64,000 bases of DNA from Ancylobacter koreensis. Its GTDB lineage: Bacteria; Pseudomonadota; Alphaproteobacteria; Rhizobiales; Xanthobacteraceae. Below the pieces are notes generated by a model, which was given only the letters and a program-made list of their open reading frames with translations, had not been told where the DNA came from and searched no databases. The stretch lies in contig NZ_JALKCG010000008.1 in the NCBI RefSeq assembly GCF_023016525.1, positions 124,001-188,000 on the forward strand. The letters are read 5' to 3'. This document shows positions 39,693-43,639 of this stretch, in pieces. Each line of letters begins with the position of its first letter. Position 1 is the stretch's first letter. The position numbers were made by a program, and so were the translations under genes.

Positions 39693-39805
39693 GCTGGTGG
39701 AACGAGGTGGTTGAGATCAACGGCGCCAAACTCCCGGAATGGGAAGTGTGCGTCCCGCTCACCACGCCAGCAGGCGCCTCCCGATCAGCGCGCCTGCGGC
39801 GGTGA
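39689..39805 (+). CDS. Tiny ORF coupled to the flavoprotein gene (38 aa), possibly a truncated gene
   Basis: The ATG overlaps the flavoprotein stop in an ATGA junction, and AAGG lies 5 nt upstream. The ORF begins MSWWNEVVEINGAKLPEWEV and turns into low-complexity basic residues before its stop, overlapping the 3' end of nrsF on the other strand. The sensible N-terminus followed by a nonsense-like tail suggests the start of a gene whose body was lost when the flanking block was joined. It could also be chance. Confidence 0.3.
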   Translation: MSWWNEVVEINGAKLPEWEVCVPLTTPAGASRSARLRR

Positions 39806-40394
39806 CGATGGCGATGGCGATACCGTACCAGGCCAGCACGAAGAGCGGCGAATCGTCGATGCAGTGCAGGGCATAAAGCGCCGCGCCGAGCCCGCCGGCC
39901 AGAAGTCCGGCGGCGGCGCCGGCGAGCGCAGGATGGGAGGGCGCGCCCCGCCGCAGCGCCAGCAGCACCGCCCCGAGCAGCGGCGCCGACAGCAGCGGCA
40001 CCAGCGTCGCGCAGTAGAGCGCATAATGGCCCATAAGCCCCGGCATCCAGCTCTCGGGCGGTGTGACGAGGAGTTGCGCCACGACGCCCGCCGCAAGCAC
40101 CGCCAGCGGCAGCAGAAGCAGCCAGGCTCCCTCCCCCACTCGGGCGCCCGGCCGCACCAGACGCAGCGCGGTCAGTCCGGCGGCAGCGGCAAGCGAGAGC
40201 GTGACCGCGAATTTGAGGAGAATGCGCGGCTCGACGAGGAGGCCCGGCATGCCGGCGCGCGGCGCCAATATGAGCGCGAACAGGGCCAACGCCCCGGCGA
40301 GGCCGACGGCCAGCCCCAGGGCAAGCCCCGTCCCCAGCCCCCGCGTGGGGCGGGCATCGGCCGCAAGGCCGCGTATCAGATCGTCCGTCTTCAC
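39759..40394 (-). CDS. nrsF: NrsF-type membrane anti-sigma factor (DUF1109)
   Basis: A 211-residue protein with six membrane helices, the DUF1109/NrsF topology. It keeps sigma F inactive at the inner membrane. Two cysteines, C128 (HYALYCATL) and C178 (YALHCIDD), sit at membrane-periplasm borders. A conserved cysteine pair is known in the family and is needed for signal response. The start is a GTG at 40394, 13 nt after the sigma gene stop. Together with sigF it forms a two-gene operon behind a sigma F-type promoter. Confidence 0.9.
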   Translation of the reverse strand: MKTDDLIRGLAADARPTRGLGTGLALGLAVGLAGALALFALILAPRAGMPGLLVEPRILLKFAVTLSLAAAAGLTALRLVRPGARVGEGAWLLLLPLAVLAAGVVAQLLVTPPESWMPGLMGHYALYCATLVPLLSAPLLGAVLLALRRGAPSHPALAGAAAGLLAGGLGAALYALHCIDDSPLFVLAWYGIAIAIVTAAGALIGRRLLAW

Positions 40395-40407
40395 GCCCGC
40401 TCGTCCC

Positions 40408-40956
40408 TCATCCGTCGTTTCTCAGCCGGGCCGAAAGGCTGGCGAAGGCCCGGTGCAGGGAGACGCGCACGGCGCCCTGCGTCATCTGCATGCGATCTGC
40501 GGTTTCGCCGATGGAGCTCCCCTCCACCGCTACGGCCCGCAGCACATCGCGCTGCTTTTCCGGCAGCAGGGCGAGATGCTTCTCGACCTCCGCCGCCTCG
40601 GTGCCGGGCCGCTCCTCGGGCGCCGCCAGCACCTCGGCGAAATCCTCCACCGACACCTCGACCCGCCGACCGCGCCGCCGCAGATGGTCGATCATCTTGT
40701 TGCGCGCGATGGTCCAGAGCCACGGGCCGAGCGGATCGCCCGACCGCCAGCTCTGGCGCTTGAGGTGAACCGCGAGCAGCGTCTCCTGCACGATGTCCTC
40801 ACACTCCGCCGTCGGCGCGCCAAGGCGCGCCAGACGGCGCTGCACCACGAGACGTAGCGCCGGCGCGATCTCGCGCAGCAGCCGCTCATAGGCAGCGCTG
40901 TCGCCGGCGAGTGCGCCTTGCATCAACTGCGCCCAGCGCCGCTCGCGCTCGTCCAT
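40408..40956 (-). CDS. sigF: ECF sigma factor, SigF type
   Basis: A 182-residue ECF sigma factor. Region 2 carries DIVQETLLAVHLKR and the -10-recognition helix WLWTIARNKMIDHLRRRGR. Region 4 carries LPEKQRDVL and the helix-turn-helix SIGETADRMQMTQGAVRVSLHRA. I chose the ATG at 40956 because the upstream ATG at 40977 overlaps the -10 element of the promoter. The pairing with NrsF and the divergent DUF2282 operon is that of Caulobacter SigF, which controls bufferin-type copper/metal-stress genes. Confidence 0.92.
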   Translation of the reverse strand: MDERERRWAQLMQGALAGDSAAYERLLREIAPALRLVVQRRLARLGAPTAECEDIVQETLLAVHLKRQSWRSGDPLGPWLWTIARNKMIDHLRRRGRRVEVSVEDFAEVLAAPEERPGTEAAEVEKHLALLPEKQRDVLRAVAVEGSSIGETADRMQMTQGAVRVSLHRAFASLSARLRNDG

Positions 40957-40977
40957 CCGCACGTTCCCGAAGGTCAA

Positions 40978-41003
40978 TTCGTCAGCCGGGGGCCCGGTGT
41001 TAC
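40978..41003 (-). promoter_or_regulatory. Sigma F-type promoter of sigF-nrsF (autoregulation)
   Basis: On the coding strand, GTAACA (41003-40998), spacer exactly 16 nt, CGAA (40981-40978). This has the GTAACC-N16-CGAA architecture known for Caulobacter SigF promoters and mirrors the promoter at 41061-41086. Position relative to the ATG at 40956 is correct. Confidence 0.75.
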
Positions 41004-41060
41004 ACCGGGTGAAGCGACCGAAGCGAATTCTTACGGCCGCATATTTCGTCGCTCGCCGCC

Positions 41061-41086
41061 GTAACGCAATGGCGGGTGCCTCCGAA
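41061..41086 (+). promoter_or_regulatory. Sigma F-type promoter of the bufferin operon
   Basis: GTAACG (41061-41066), 16-nt spacer, CGAA (41083-41086), about 70 nt upstream of the bufA start codon. It shares spacing and both core elements with the divergent sigF promoter, so the two are very probably co-regulated by sigma F. Confidence 0.78.
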
Positions 41087-41156
41087 GAAGGAGATGGCGC
41101 CGGTTGGGCTCGAACGCCCCGGCACCGGACAGACCCTTCATAGAGGAAATCCCCCG

Positions 41157-41453
41157 ATGACCACGACCTTCAGCAAGAACACCCTCGCCGCGGCCACCCT
41201 TGCCGGTTCGCTCGCCGCCGCCCTCGGCATGGTCGCCAGCGCCGCCGCCGGCCCCGTGGCGCCGCAGCCGACCATGGACAAGTGCTACGGCATCTCGATG
41301 GCCGGCCAGAACGACTGCGCCGCAGGCGCGGGCACCACCTGCGCCGGCACCTCGAAGGTCAATTACGACGCCAAGGCGTGGAAATACGTCGCCAAGGGCA
41401 CCTGCGAGACCATCAAGACCCCGAAGGGCATGGGCCACCTGCAGCCCATGTGA
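41157..41453 (+). CDS. bufA1: Bufferin precursor (DUF2282 family), copper-binding RiPP-like peptide
   Basis: A 98-residue exported precursor. A Sec signal of about 31 residues ends in ASAAAG. The mature part has four cysteines, C43 (DKCYG), C54 (QNDCA), C62 (TTCAG) and C83 (KGTCE), in the DUF2282 pattern. In bufferins, cysteines are converted by the DUF692/DUF2063 enzyme pair to heterocycles that bind copper in the periplasm. The start ATG at 41157 has GAGGAA upstream. It is the first gene after the sigma F-type promoter and is followed by a strong double hairpin, which would favour high peptide levels. Confidence 0.9.
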   Translation: MTTTFSKNTLAAATLAGSLAAALGMVASAAAGPVAPQPTMDKCYGISMAGQNDCAAGAGTTCAGTSKVNYDAKAWKYVAKGTCETIKTPKGMGHLQPM

Positions 41454-41463
41454 GATCGCGCCA

Positions 41464-41510
41464 CCGGGCTGAGGCCCGGACCAAGGGAGGGCGCCCCTCG
41501 GCGCCCTCCC
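41464..41510 (+). terminator. Double hairpin between the precursor and maturase genes
   Basis: The first stem is CCGGGC-TGAG-GCCCGG (41464-41479). The second is an 11-bp perfect stem GGGAGGGCGCC-CCTC-GGCGCCCTCCC (41485-41510). It is followed by CCCGCCAAGGAGG, which supplies the ribosome-binding site of bufB, not a U-tract. A partial terminator or mRNA-stabilising element is likely, giving more peptide than enzyme. Confidence 0.65.
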
Positions 41511-41528
41511 CCCGCCAAGGAGGTTTCC

Positions 41529-42380
41529 ATGCCCGCCACGCTTCCCGCCGGCCCCGGCGTCGGCTTCAAGCCCGAGCACTTCGACGCCATCCTCGCGGAT
41601 GAGGCGAGCCCCCTCTCCTTCGTCGAGATCCATGCCGAGAACTACATGGGCGACGGCGGAAGGCCGCACGCCCAGCTCGCCATGCTGCGCGAGCGCTTCG
41701 CCCTCTCCGTTCACGGCGTCGGCCTCTCCATCGGTGGCGAGACGCTCGATGCCGCCCATCTCGCCCGCCTGCGCCGGCTGATCGACCGCTACCGGCCGGA
41801 GAGTTTTTCCGAGCATCTCGCCTGGTCGACGCATGAGGGAGCCTTCTTCAACGACCTGCTGCCGCTGCCCTACACCCGGGAAACGCTGGCGCGGGTCGCC
41901 GGCCACATCTCGCGCGTCCAGGACACGCTCGGCCGGCGCATGCTGCTGGAGAACCCGTCGACCTATGTGCGCTTCGCGGAAAGCACGATCCGTGAGGTCG
42001 ACTTCCTTGGCGCGCTGGTCGCCCGCACCGGCTGCGGTCTGCTGCTCGACGTGAACAACGTTTTCGTCTCGGCCGTGAACCACGGGACCGATGCACGGGC
42101 CTACCTCGCCGACTTCCCCTTCGAGGCGGTCGGCGAAATTCACCTCGGCGGCCATGACGAGGACGCCGACGAGACCGGCGCGCCGCTGCTGATCGACGCC
42201 CATGGCAGCCCCGTCGCCGACCCGGTGTGGACTTTGTTCGTCGAGGTGATCGCCCGCACCGGGCCTCTGCCGAGCCTGATCGAATGGGACAATGACGTAC
42301 CGGAATGGCCGATCCTGCGGGCCGAAGCCGCGCGCGCCGGAACGGTACTGGCCCGCCACCTCCGCAGCCGGGCGGCCTGA
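41529..42380 (+). CDS. bufB: DUF692 (MNIO) peptide-modifying oxidase of the bufferin system
   Basis: A 283-residue TIM-barrel multinuclear non-haem iron oxidase. Probable iron ligands are in SVHGVGLS (H62), SEHLAW (H96), LLENPST (E141), LLDVNN (D174), AVNHG (H185), EIHLGGH (H205, H209) and IEWDND (E252). Family members such as MbnB oxidise cysteines of a peptide partner to azole-type rings. It acts with the DUF2063 partner encoded 3 nt downstream. AAGGAGG precedes the ATG at 41529. Confidence 0.93.
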
Positions 42381-42383
42381 GCC

Positions 42384-43133
42384 ATGAGCGGATTCGCCAT
42401 CTTCGCCGCCGGCCTCACCGCGCCGGAACGGCGGCCGCCGGCAGGGCTGGCCGGGCCGTCCGAACGCCGCTTCGCGGTCTACCGCAACAATGTCGCGGTG
42501 GGCCTGATCCGGGCGCTGGAGACGCGGTTTCCCGCCGTGCGCTCGTTGGTCGGCGAGGAATTCTTCGGCGCCATGGCGCGCGACTTCATCCGCAGCCATC
42601 CGCCGGCCTCGCCCGTGCTGGCGGGGTTCGGCGACGAGCTTCCGGGATTCCTCGCCGGCTTCGAGCCCGCCGCCGATCTGCCCTATCTCGCCGACATCGC
42701 CCGCATCGAGGCGGCACGCACGCGGGCCTATCACGCGGCCGATCTGGCGCGTCTCGACGCATCCGTCTTCGCCGCCCTGCCCCCGGACGCGCTGGAGCGG
42801 CTGCGTATCACGCTGCACCCGGCCGCGACGGTCGTCCGCTCGATCCACCCGGTATGGGACATCCTTGCCGCTGCGAGCGGGGCGGGCGACGTGACGGAAT
42901 GGACGCCGCAGGCGGTGCTGATCGACCGGCCGCATCTCGACGTGGTGATGCGCCCGCTCCCGGTCGGCACCGCCGCCTTCCTCGCCGCGCTCGCAGCCGA
43001 CGCCCCGCTTGGCGACGCCGCGACCTCGGCCAGTGCCGCCGATCCGGCCTTCAACCCCACCGCCGCGCTCCTCGACCTCATCGGCGGCGCGCTTGCGATC
43101 CAAATTCACCTCCCGGAGGAGTCTTTGACATGA
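42384..43133 (+). CDS. bufC: DUF2063 partner protein of the bufferin maturase
   Basis: A 249-residue protein with the N-terminal DUF2063 helical domain (about 1-95: ERRFAVYRNNVAVGLIRALETRFP, FFGAMARDFIRSHPP) and a C-terminal alpha-beta domain. It is the MbnC-like partner that forms a heterodimer with the DUF692 oxidase and recruits the precursor peptide. It starts 3 nt after bufB and overlaps the DoxX gene by ATGA, so the order bufA-bufB-bufC-doxX is one tightly coupled operon. Confidence 0.92.
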   Translation: MSGFAIFAAGLTAPERRPPAGLAGPSERRFAVYRNNVAVGLIRALETRFPAVRSLVGEEFFGAMARDFIRSHPPASPVLAGFGDELPGFLAGFEPAADLPYLADIARIEAARTRAYHAADLARLDASVFAALPPDALERLRITLHPAATVVRSIHPVWDILAAASGAGDVTEWTPQAVLIDRPHLDVVMRPLPVGTAAFLAALAADAPLGDAATSASAADPAFNPTAALLDLIGGALAIQIHLPEESLT

Positions 43134-43639
43134 CCCCGCATATGGCCACCCGACCCTCCAACGCCGCCGGACCGGCGGATTTCCCCGGCTCCGGCCTCGT
43201 TGCGTCGCTGCTGCGGCTGCGCGAGCGGCTCGACGCCATCCCGATGTCGGTGCTGACATTCTGCGCCCGCCTCTTCCCGGCCGCCGTCTTCTGGCAGTCC
43301 GGTCAGACCAAGGTGGAGGGCTGGCGGGTCACCGACGGCGCGGTGGCGCTGTTTCAGGAGGAATACCGGCTGCCGCTGGTCGATCCGTGGCTCGCCGCGC
43401 ATCTCGCCGCCTTCGCCGAGCATTTCTTCCCGGTATTGCTGGTGCTCGGCCTCGCCACGCGCCTCTCCGCCGCCGCCTTGCTCGCGATGACGCTGGTGAT
43501 CGAGATTTTCGTCTATCCCGATGCCTGGCCGACCCATGGCGTGTGGGCGACCTGCTTCCTGTTGCTGATCGCGCGCGGGCCGGGCCTTCTGTCCGTCGAT
43601 GCGCTCATCGAGCGACTTTGGTTGCGTCCGGCCCGGTGA
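43130..43639 (+). CDS. DoxX-family membrane protein
   Basis: A 169-residue protein with four membrane helices (about 40-60, 85-110, 112-132 and 140-160), the DoxX topology. The N-terminal third carries an amphipathic stretch LLRLRERLDAIPMSVL and the conserved FWQSGQTKVEGW loop. DoxX proteins are frequent last genes of DUF692/DUF2063 operons; their role is not settled, with redox or quinone-linked activity often proposed. The start overlaps the bufC stop (ATGA). Confidence 0.85.
   Translation: MTPHMATRPSNAAGPADFPGSGLVASLLRLRERLDAIPMSVLTFCARLFPAAVFWQSGQTKVEGWRVTDGAVALFQEEYRLPLVDPWLAAHLAAFAEHFFPVLLVLGLATRLSAAALLAMTLVIEIFVYPDAWPTHGVWATCFLLLIARGPGLLSVDALIERLWLRPAR

Follow-up and report, generated by a model that had tools for sequence, protein, structure and literature searches.

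The question raised by this locus is how two divergent transcription units of Ancylobacter koreensis, the sigF-nrsF pair coding for a sigma factor and its anti-sigma factor and an operon coding for a bufferin, are controlled from the 200-nt gap lying between them (40957-41156). The window, by which we mean the whole 64-kb stretch of DNA that was analysed, corresponds to positions 124001-188000 of contig C18 of a 4.06-Mb genome represented by 19 contigs, and all coordinates are given within it. It is very likely that the gap contains two back-to-back promoters of the SigF (ECF16) type, from which SigF released by NrsF would drive both its own operon and that of the bufferin. Published systems are cited from excerpts of the papers named.

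The features of the gap and the genes flanking it are listed in Table 1. The sigF product contains both region 2 (PF04542) and region 4 (PF08281) domains scoring above the cut-off within its 182 aa, as is characteristic of ECF sigma factors, and matches the NF009165 model with 252.4 bits (cut-off 198). The nrsF gene follows directly downstream in the same operon after 13 nt, an arrangement typical of the ECF16 group, and its product matches PF06532 with 182.9 bits over 204 of 204 profile positions. It possesses exactly two cysteines, Cys128 and Cys178, as expected for NrsF (Kohler 2012, PMC3511200), which correspond to C131 and C181 of the Caulobacter protein, the pair being matched by spacing and not by residue alignment. 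Against NF042994, the AntiSigF_NrsF equivalog model, the protein scores 92.8 bits with a cut-off of 300, with positions 1-214 of 214 covered; this model was presumably built narrowly around close Caulobacter orthologues. Membership is therefore claimed for the PF06532 family and the ECF16 group and not for the equivalog.

Table 1 Features of the sigF/DUF2282 gap and neighbouring genes (window coordinates).
Feature	Positions	Strand	Remarks
-35 GTAACA, sigF-ward promoter	40998..41003	-	exact match; conserved in relatives
-10 CGAA, sigF-ward promoter	40978..40981	-	exact match; spacer 16 nt
-35 GTAACG, bufferin-operon promoter	41061..41066	+	exact match; conserved in relatives
-10 CGAA, bufferin promoter	41083..41086	+	exact match; spacer 16 nt
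A+T-richer block CATATTTCGTCGC	41040..41052		between both -35 boxes, a short way upstream of the bufferin one
sigF, ECF16-type ECF sigma factor	40408..40956	-	182 aa; ATG start 40956; Sigma70_r2 and Sigma70_r4_2 above cut-off
nrsF, anti-sigma factor NrsF/DUF1109	39759..40394	-	211 aa; GTG start; PF06532
bufA-like bufferin-1 precursor (DUF2282)	41157..41453	+	98 aa; PF10048, 85 bits
bufB, MNIO bufferin maturase (DUF692)	41529..42380	+	NF050167 MNIO_BufB and PF05114
bufC-like partner (DUF2063)	42384..43133	+	PF09836 above cut-off
DoxX-family membrane protein	43130..43639	+	last in operon; PF07681 above cut-off

The operon adjoining sigF-nrsF is a complete bufferin-1 operon with the gene order DUF2282-DUF692-DUF2063-DoxX. 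The precursor has the four cysteines (Cys 43, 54, 62 and 83) expected for bufferin-1 (PMC12452194), and no NCBIfam model matched it. BufB matches NF050167 with 368.8 bits (cut-off 310), as a bufferin-1 maturase should, and the DUF2063 and DoxX genes complete the bufferin-1 set, with related NCBIfam Hvf models matching below their cut-offs. Bufferin-1 clusters are recorded as including sigma factor and NrsF genes (PMC12452194).

A sequence-only reading of this DNA had placed two elements with 16-nt spacers in the gap, GTAACA-N16-CGAA toward sigF and GTAACG-N16-CGAA toward the DUF2282 gene, and both are indeed exact matches, found at 41003-40978 on the minus strand and at 41061-41086 on the plus strand, respectively. 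Compared with the form tGTAACc-N16-CGAA characteristic of the ECF16 group, the GTAAC and CGAA cores are exact and the spacers are 16 nt long on both sides, and the base standing in place of the consensus flanking c, i.e. the sixth base of the -35 box, is A or G. The likeness to the Caulobacter SigF promoter form proposed at the same time holds as well, and the published promoters of relatives agree with it.

The same reading had set the sigF start at 40956 on the ground that an upstream ATG would overlap the -10 box. The position is right and the reason is not, as the only in-frame candidates upstream are TTG at 40977, directly abutting the -10 box, and GTG at 40962, with no ATG among them. 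What supports the start is an in-frame TAG located immediately before the equivalent ATG in two Xanthobacter loci (L202 and L203), which leaves no room for a translation start further upstream there. The distance from the -10 box to the sigF ATG is 21 nt in the window, in both Xanthobacter loci and in Aquabacter spiritensis (L201), and 20 nt in Mesorhizobium sp. BR1-1-16 (L204).

The conservation of the two sites was assessed at NrsF loci of the order and of the genus. NrsF was found in 120 of the 297 sampled genomes of the order (over the cut-off in 116) and in 29 of the 30 genomes of the genus (over the cut-off in 28). The order sample contains 125 over-cut-off NrsF places, and DNA was taken around 120 of the 124 besides the window's own, leaving out four (in G042, G117, G209 and G249) together with the sub-cut-off ones of the order sample. 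Altogether, the order and genus sets comprise 166 NrsF hits in 160 loci. The hits fall into 51 with the divergent layout, 91 with no bufA nearby (some of these loci being examined over only 1.5 kb on each side), 17 with no recognised sigF and seven with other layouts. Four of those classed were then dropped, as their sigF match started past profile position 10.

Among the 51 divergent loci, many of which are close relatives and hence not independent, 18 have the exact form toward sigF, 28 toward DUF2282 and 14 on both sides, compared with four of 10200 shuffled segments. In both directions it peaks at a gap of 17 nt after GTAAC, other lengths being rare beside it. A profile scan gave scores above the 99% point of the shuffles for 44 of the 51 loci on each side (38 on both) and revealed that CGTA replaces CGAA in many relatives. 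With the form relaxed to GTAAY-N16-18-CGWA, the site was found toward sigF in 47 divergent loci, toward the bufferin operon in 49 and on both sides in 46, as opposed to 12 of 2040 shuffled segments and two of 1869 segments taken at random from these loci, the latter being in our judgement mostly coding DNA and not matched gaps. The shuffles used for the exact, profile and relaxed tests in the loci were single-base ones, those of the window itself preserving dinucleotides. The relaxed form is also present upstream of sigF in 76 of 89 loci with no nearby bufferin gene. It was missed sigF-ward in L059, L098, L115 and L195 and DUF2282-ward in L059 and L061; L059 encodes the SigF nearest to that of the window (85% identity), yet its -35 boxes read ATAAC and CTAAC, with CGAA and the spacing being normal.

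As DUF2282 and DUF692 are each represented by one gene in this genome, the question whether other genes of the family carry the site was transferred to other genomes of the order, of which at least 154 out of 297 contain DUF2282. The relaxed site precedes 49 of the 51 DUF2282 copies adjacent to sigF-nrsF, 11 of the 21 copies that are unlinked but share a genome with NrsF, and none of the 41 copies in genomes with no NrsF match at E 0.001, the latter two sets being our own pick among the matches listed. The upstream segments of adjacent copies were 140-772 nt long (most of them 240-330 nt) and were trimmed to the last 330 nt, and those of the other copies were up to 330 nt. Three of the 11 unlinked copies (L272-L274) are near-duplicates belonging to a single genus, in which the site is found some 157 nt ahead of the gene.

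Relatives found in one scan (L201-L206) were compared locus by locus. A. spiritensis, the SigF of which is 81% identical to that of the window, possesses bufA and bufB and keeps both sites. The two Xanthobacter loci (81% and 80%) contain nrsF and retain the sigF-side site only, the aligned bufferin-side element having become GCAAG with CGAA lost; no match to bufA or bufB was found within the 8.5 kb examined. The Mesorhizobium locus (64%) likewise carries only the sigF-side site, and neither bufA nor bufB was matched there. In the distant L205 (40%) and L206 (43%) no nrsF was matched, and a GTAAT site is found toward the sigma gene only in the former and once in each direction in the latter. 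The sites, the genes, their conservation and the link of the site with NrsF across genomes are thereby established, and the notion of back-to-back SigF promoters serving sigF-nrsF and the bufferin operon gains strong comparative support from the 47 and 49 of 51 divergent loci, the absence of the site from all 41 copies without NrsF among the matches listed, and Xanthobacter.

The scan of the whole genome that the earlier reading had suggested produced five exact matches of GTAAC-N17-CGAA, two of which are those of the gap, the other three being located inside Pfam-supported genes coding for XdhC-like, sarcosine-oxidase-alpha-like and UvrD helicase proteins. The window pair thus represents the only exact sites in an intergenic gap of this genome, and one bidirectional gap may carry its whole strict SigF regulon. 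Location in a long ORF is insufficient alone to dismiss a site, since the window pair itself falls in ORFs of 253 and 517 aa. The relaxed GTAAY-N17-CGWA gave ten matches compared with 30 for the reversed control, and the five beyond the exact ones are not all clearly intragenic. One (L227) lies within a frame carrying a FAD-binding family; another (L225) is antisense and close to the start of an aminotransferase frame; L226 and L228 are within frames, the one of them that was checked having no family; and a GTAAT-N17-CGAA site (L224, about 1501-1526; C11:417107-417132) overlies what is probably the start of a gene for a response regulator reading in the same direction. After checking the exact and relaxed sites no further SigF targets in the genome are claimed, and weak additional ones are possible.

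In some of the divergent loci the two sides of the gap differ in their -10 boxes. Taking the letters from the best-scoring site on each side, the sigF-side/bufferin-side pairs are CGAA/CGAA in 24 of the 51 loci, CGTA/CGTA in 13, CGTA/CGAA in 11 (L046, L049, L064, L065, L066, L080, L097, L106, L110, L129 and L132), CGAA/CGTA in none and other combinations in three; the sigF-side score of L110 is 10.0, below the 99% shuffle point of 10.4. There is no overall bias of profile scores between the sides, the bufferin side scoring higher in 26 of the 51 loci and the sigF side in 25, and the profile disfavours CGTA, being seeded from exact CGAA sites. On the SigF tree the CGTA/CGAA label needs eight changes, at least six of them on starred branches, so that the 11-to-0 pattern, uncorrected for kinship, shows scatter and not selection. 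We consider it possible, if rather doubtful, that selection tunes the paired promoters differently, with CGTA for the sigma gene and CGAA for the bufferin operon. If this were true, the self-amplifying arm would be kept less strong than that of the output, and the window, having CGAA in both promoters, would represent an untuned, high-gain version. The asymmetry was not met in the excerpts of open-licence PMC literature covered by our searches, which were not aimed at the asymmetry alone, and is possibly new. The motif of Bradyrhizobium EcfF already permitted T or A in the -10 box (PMC3420878). The survey supplies loci for asking how an ECF circuit balances self-amplification against output.

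Several of the features described have counterparts in known systems. Caulobacter crescentus has, like the window, a SigF-NrsF pair (CC3253-CC3252) beside a DUF2282-DUF692-DUF2063-DoxX operon (CC3254-CC3257), and SigF-dependent transcription of the latter from the motif was demonstrated by 5'-RACE, lacZ fusions and a sigF mutant (PMC3511200). Its promoter reads GTAACC-N16-CGAA, the sixth -35 base being C in contrast to A or G in the window. Copper raises the expression of sigF, nrsF and the operon, and a mutant lacking sigF is sensitive to copper (PMC8224329); autoregulation of sigF in metal stress is described as not strong (PMC3511200). Caulobacter SigF has further targets, CC2907-2905 and the YedY/MsrP-like CC2748, whereas the other three exact sites of the window's genome are intragenic.

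In Sinorhizobium meliloti, the ECF16 pair RpoE7-EcfR7 and SMb20530-SMb20527 have the same divergent layout, with GTAACA-N16-CGAA before SMb20530 and GTAACA...CGAA before rpoE7 (PMC6180224), the latter having a spacer of 15 nt by our own count from the printed sequence compared with 16 nt in the window. Promoters were mapped in this system, and overexpressed RpoE7 increases the expression of its anti-sigma gene as well as of the four genes of the divergent unit (PMC6180224). Neither rpoE7 nor its target responded to H2O2, Cd or chromate, and no inducer was found among those tried (PMC6180224), so the signal may differ by species. With the motif, layout and co-regulation published for two alphaproteobacteria, the arrangement itself is already known. 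EcfF-OsrA of Bradyrhizobium japonicum and BcrS-AbcS of Brucella are also autoregulated pairs of the ECF16/DUF1109 type, in which the promoters read GTAAC...CG(A/T) and two cysteines are conserved (PMC3420878, PMC8315932). Their targets include methionine-sulphoxide-reductase genes, a bufferin operon not being mentioned in the excerpts, and they respond to peroxide and singlet oxygen or to hypochlorous acid. Autoregulation of sigF in A. koreensis is plausible.

Three other explanations of the gap have to be weighed. A nine-base pattern may occur by chance, and single matches are indeed uninformative here, the reversed control having 14 matches in the genome to the five real ones; with the pattern rarer than its reversed controls there is no genome-wide enrichment, and it is the placement that carries the weight. 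The two sites of the gap lie back to back within 200 nt and are the only exact matches in the 64-kb window, whereas 100 dinucleotide-preserving shuffles of it contained 0.16 on average and none of them reached two. With one mismatch allowed, the window contains eight matches compared with 4.27 expected, and seven of 100 shuffles reach eight, so the excess fades and the signal resides in the exact form. Conservation across the divergent loci and co-occurrence with NrsF contradict chance too, which makes it scarcely credible that both matches are accidental. It is very improbable that an additional DNA-binding regulator acts in the gap at CCCGGTGTTACACCGGG, a 17-bp palindrome at 40993-41009: it is perfect and covers the sigF -35 box, yet it is lost in L059, L179, L184, L191 and L201, where only the GTTA or ATTA core belonging to the promoter recurs. 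As an operator, it is ruled out by this absence of conservation in five aligned relatives and is probably a chance occurrence.

The remaining alternative, which we regard as unlikely though the least so of the three, is that SigF truly uses the bufferin-side element alone and that sigF-nrsF is transcribed from the same gap mainly by another sigma factor at a constant low level, making the module a feed-forward and not a self-amplifying one. The Caulobacter sigF promoter, which is used, remains partly active in a sigF mutant (PMC3511200), and CGTA on the sigF side accompanies CGAA on the bufferin side in 11 of 51 loci, the reverse occurring in none, both of which agree with such a module. It is at odds with the sigF-side site, which is exact in the window, has its relaxed form in most loci with and without a nearby bufferin gene (47/51 and 76/89) and survives in Xanthobacter in the absence of the operon. 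Moreover, no sigma-70-type (housekeeping) promoter was found by a consensus scan of 40380-41560, which spans part of the promoter types, and copper raises Caulobacter sigF about 4.5- to 26-fold (log2 2.17-4.70; PMC8224329).

With two SigF promoters in the gap, the circuit would operate as follows. Periplasmic metal or oxidative stress would inactivate the membrane anti-sigma factor NrsF and set SigF free, and free SigF would start two transcripts, sigF-nrsF with a leader of about 14 nt, if transcription begins some 7 nt beyond the -10 box, and the bufferin-1 operon with a leader of about 64 nt. In Caulobacter, the bufferin-side start was mapped 61 nt before the ATG (PMC3511200). The four-Cys peptide made from the operon would be modified by the MNIO enzyme and bind excess copper in the periplasm. 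For A. koreensis, we infer the start sites, the autoregulation, the metal signal and the copper binding. GTAAY-N16-18-CGWA provides a usable promoter definition that tells bufferin genes under SigF control apart from those of genomes lacking SigF-NrsF.

In the alignment, L179, L184 and L191 share the A+T-richer block CATATTTCGTCGC of the window letter for letter, L059 and L201 have a similar sequence there, and the Xanthobacter loci, though without the operon, retain part of it. The block may be an upstream (UP-like) element for one or both promoters. A weak match to a housekeeping promoter was seen by eye on the minus strand of the gap.

Some loci of the survey have layouts of their own. In L054, L055, L056, L067 and L156 the bufferin operon is located upstream of sigF-nrsF on the same strand, and a search of these five for the CGAA form only (GTAAC-N10-25-CGAA) detected none directly before sigF. 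A tandem NrsF pair with no recognised SigF directly upstream is present in L188, L189, L190, L199 and L200, all from genomes of the genus, and a tandem pair of DUF2282 precursors lies across the gap from sigF in L042, L044, L046, L097, L167, L168 and L174.
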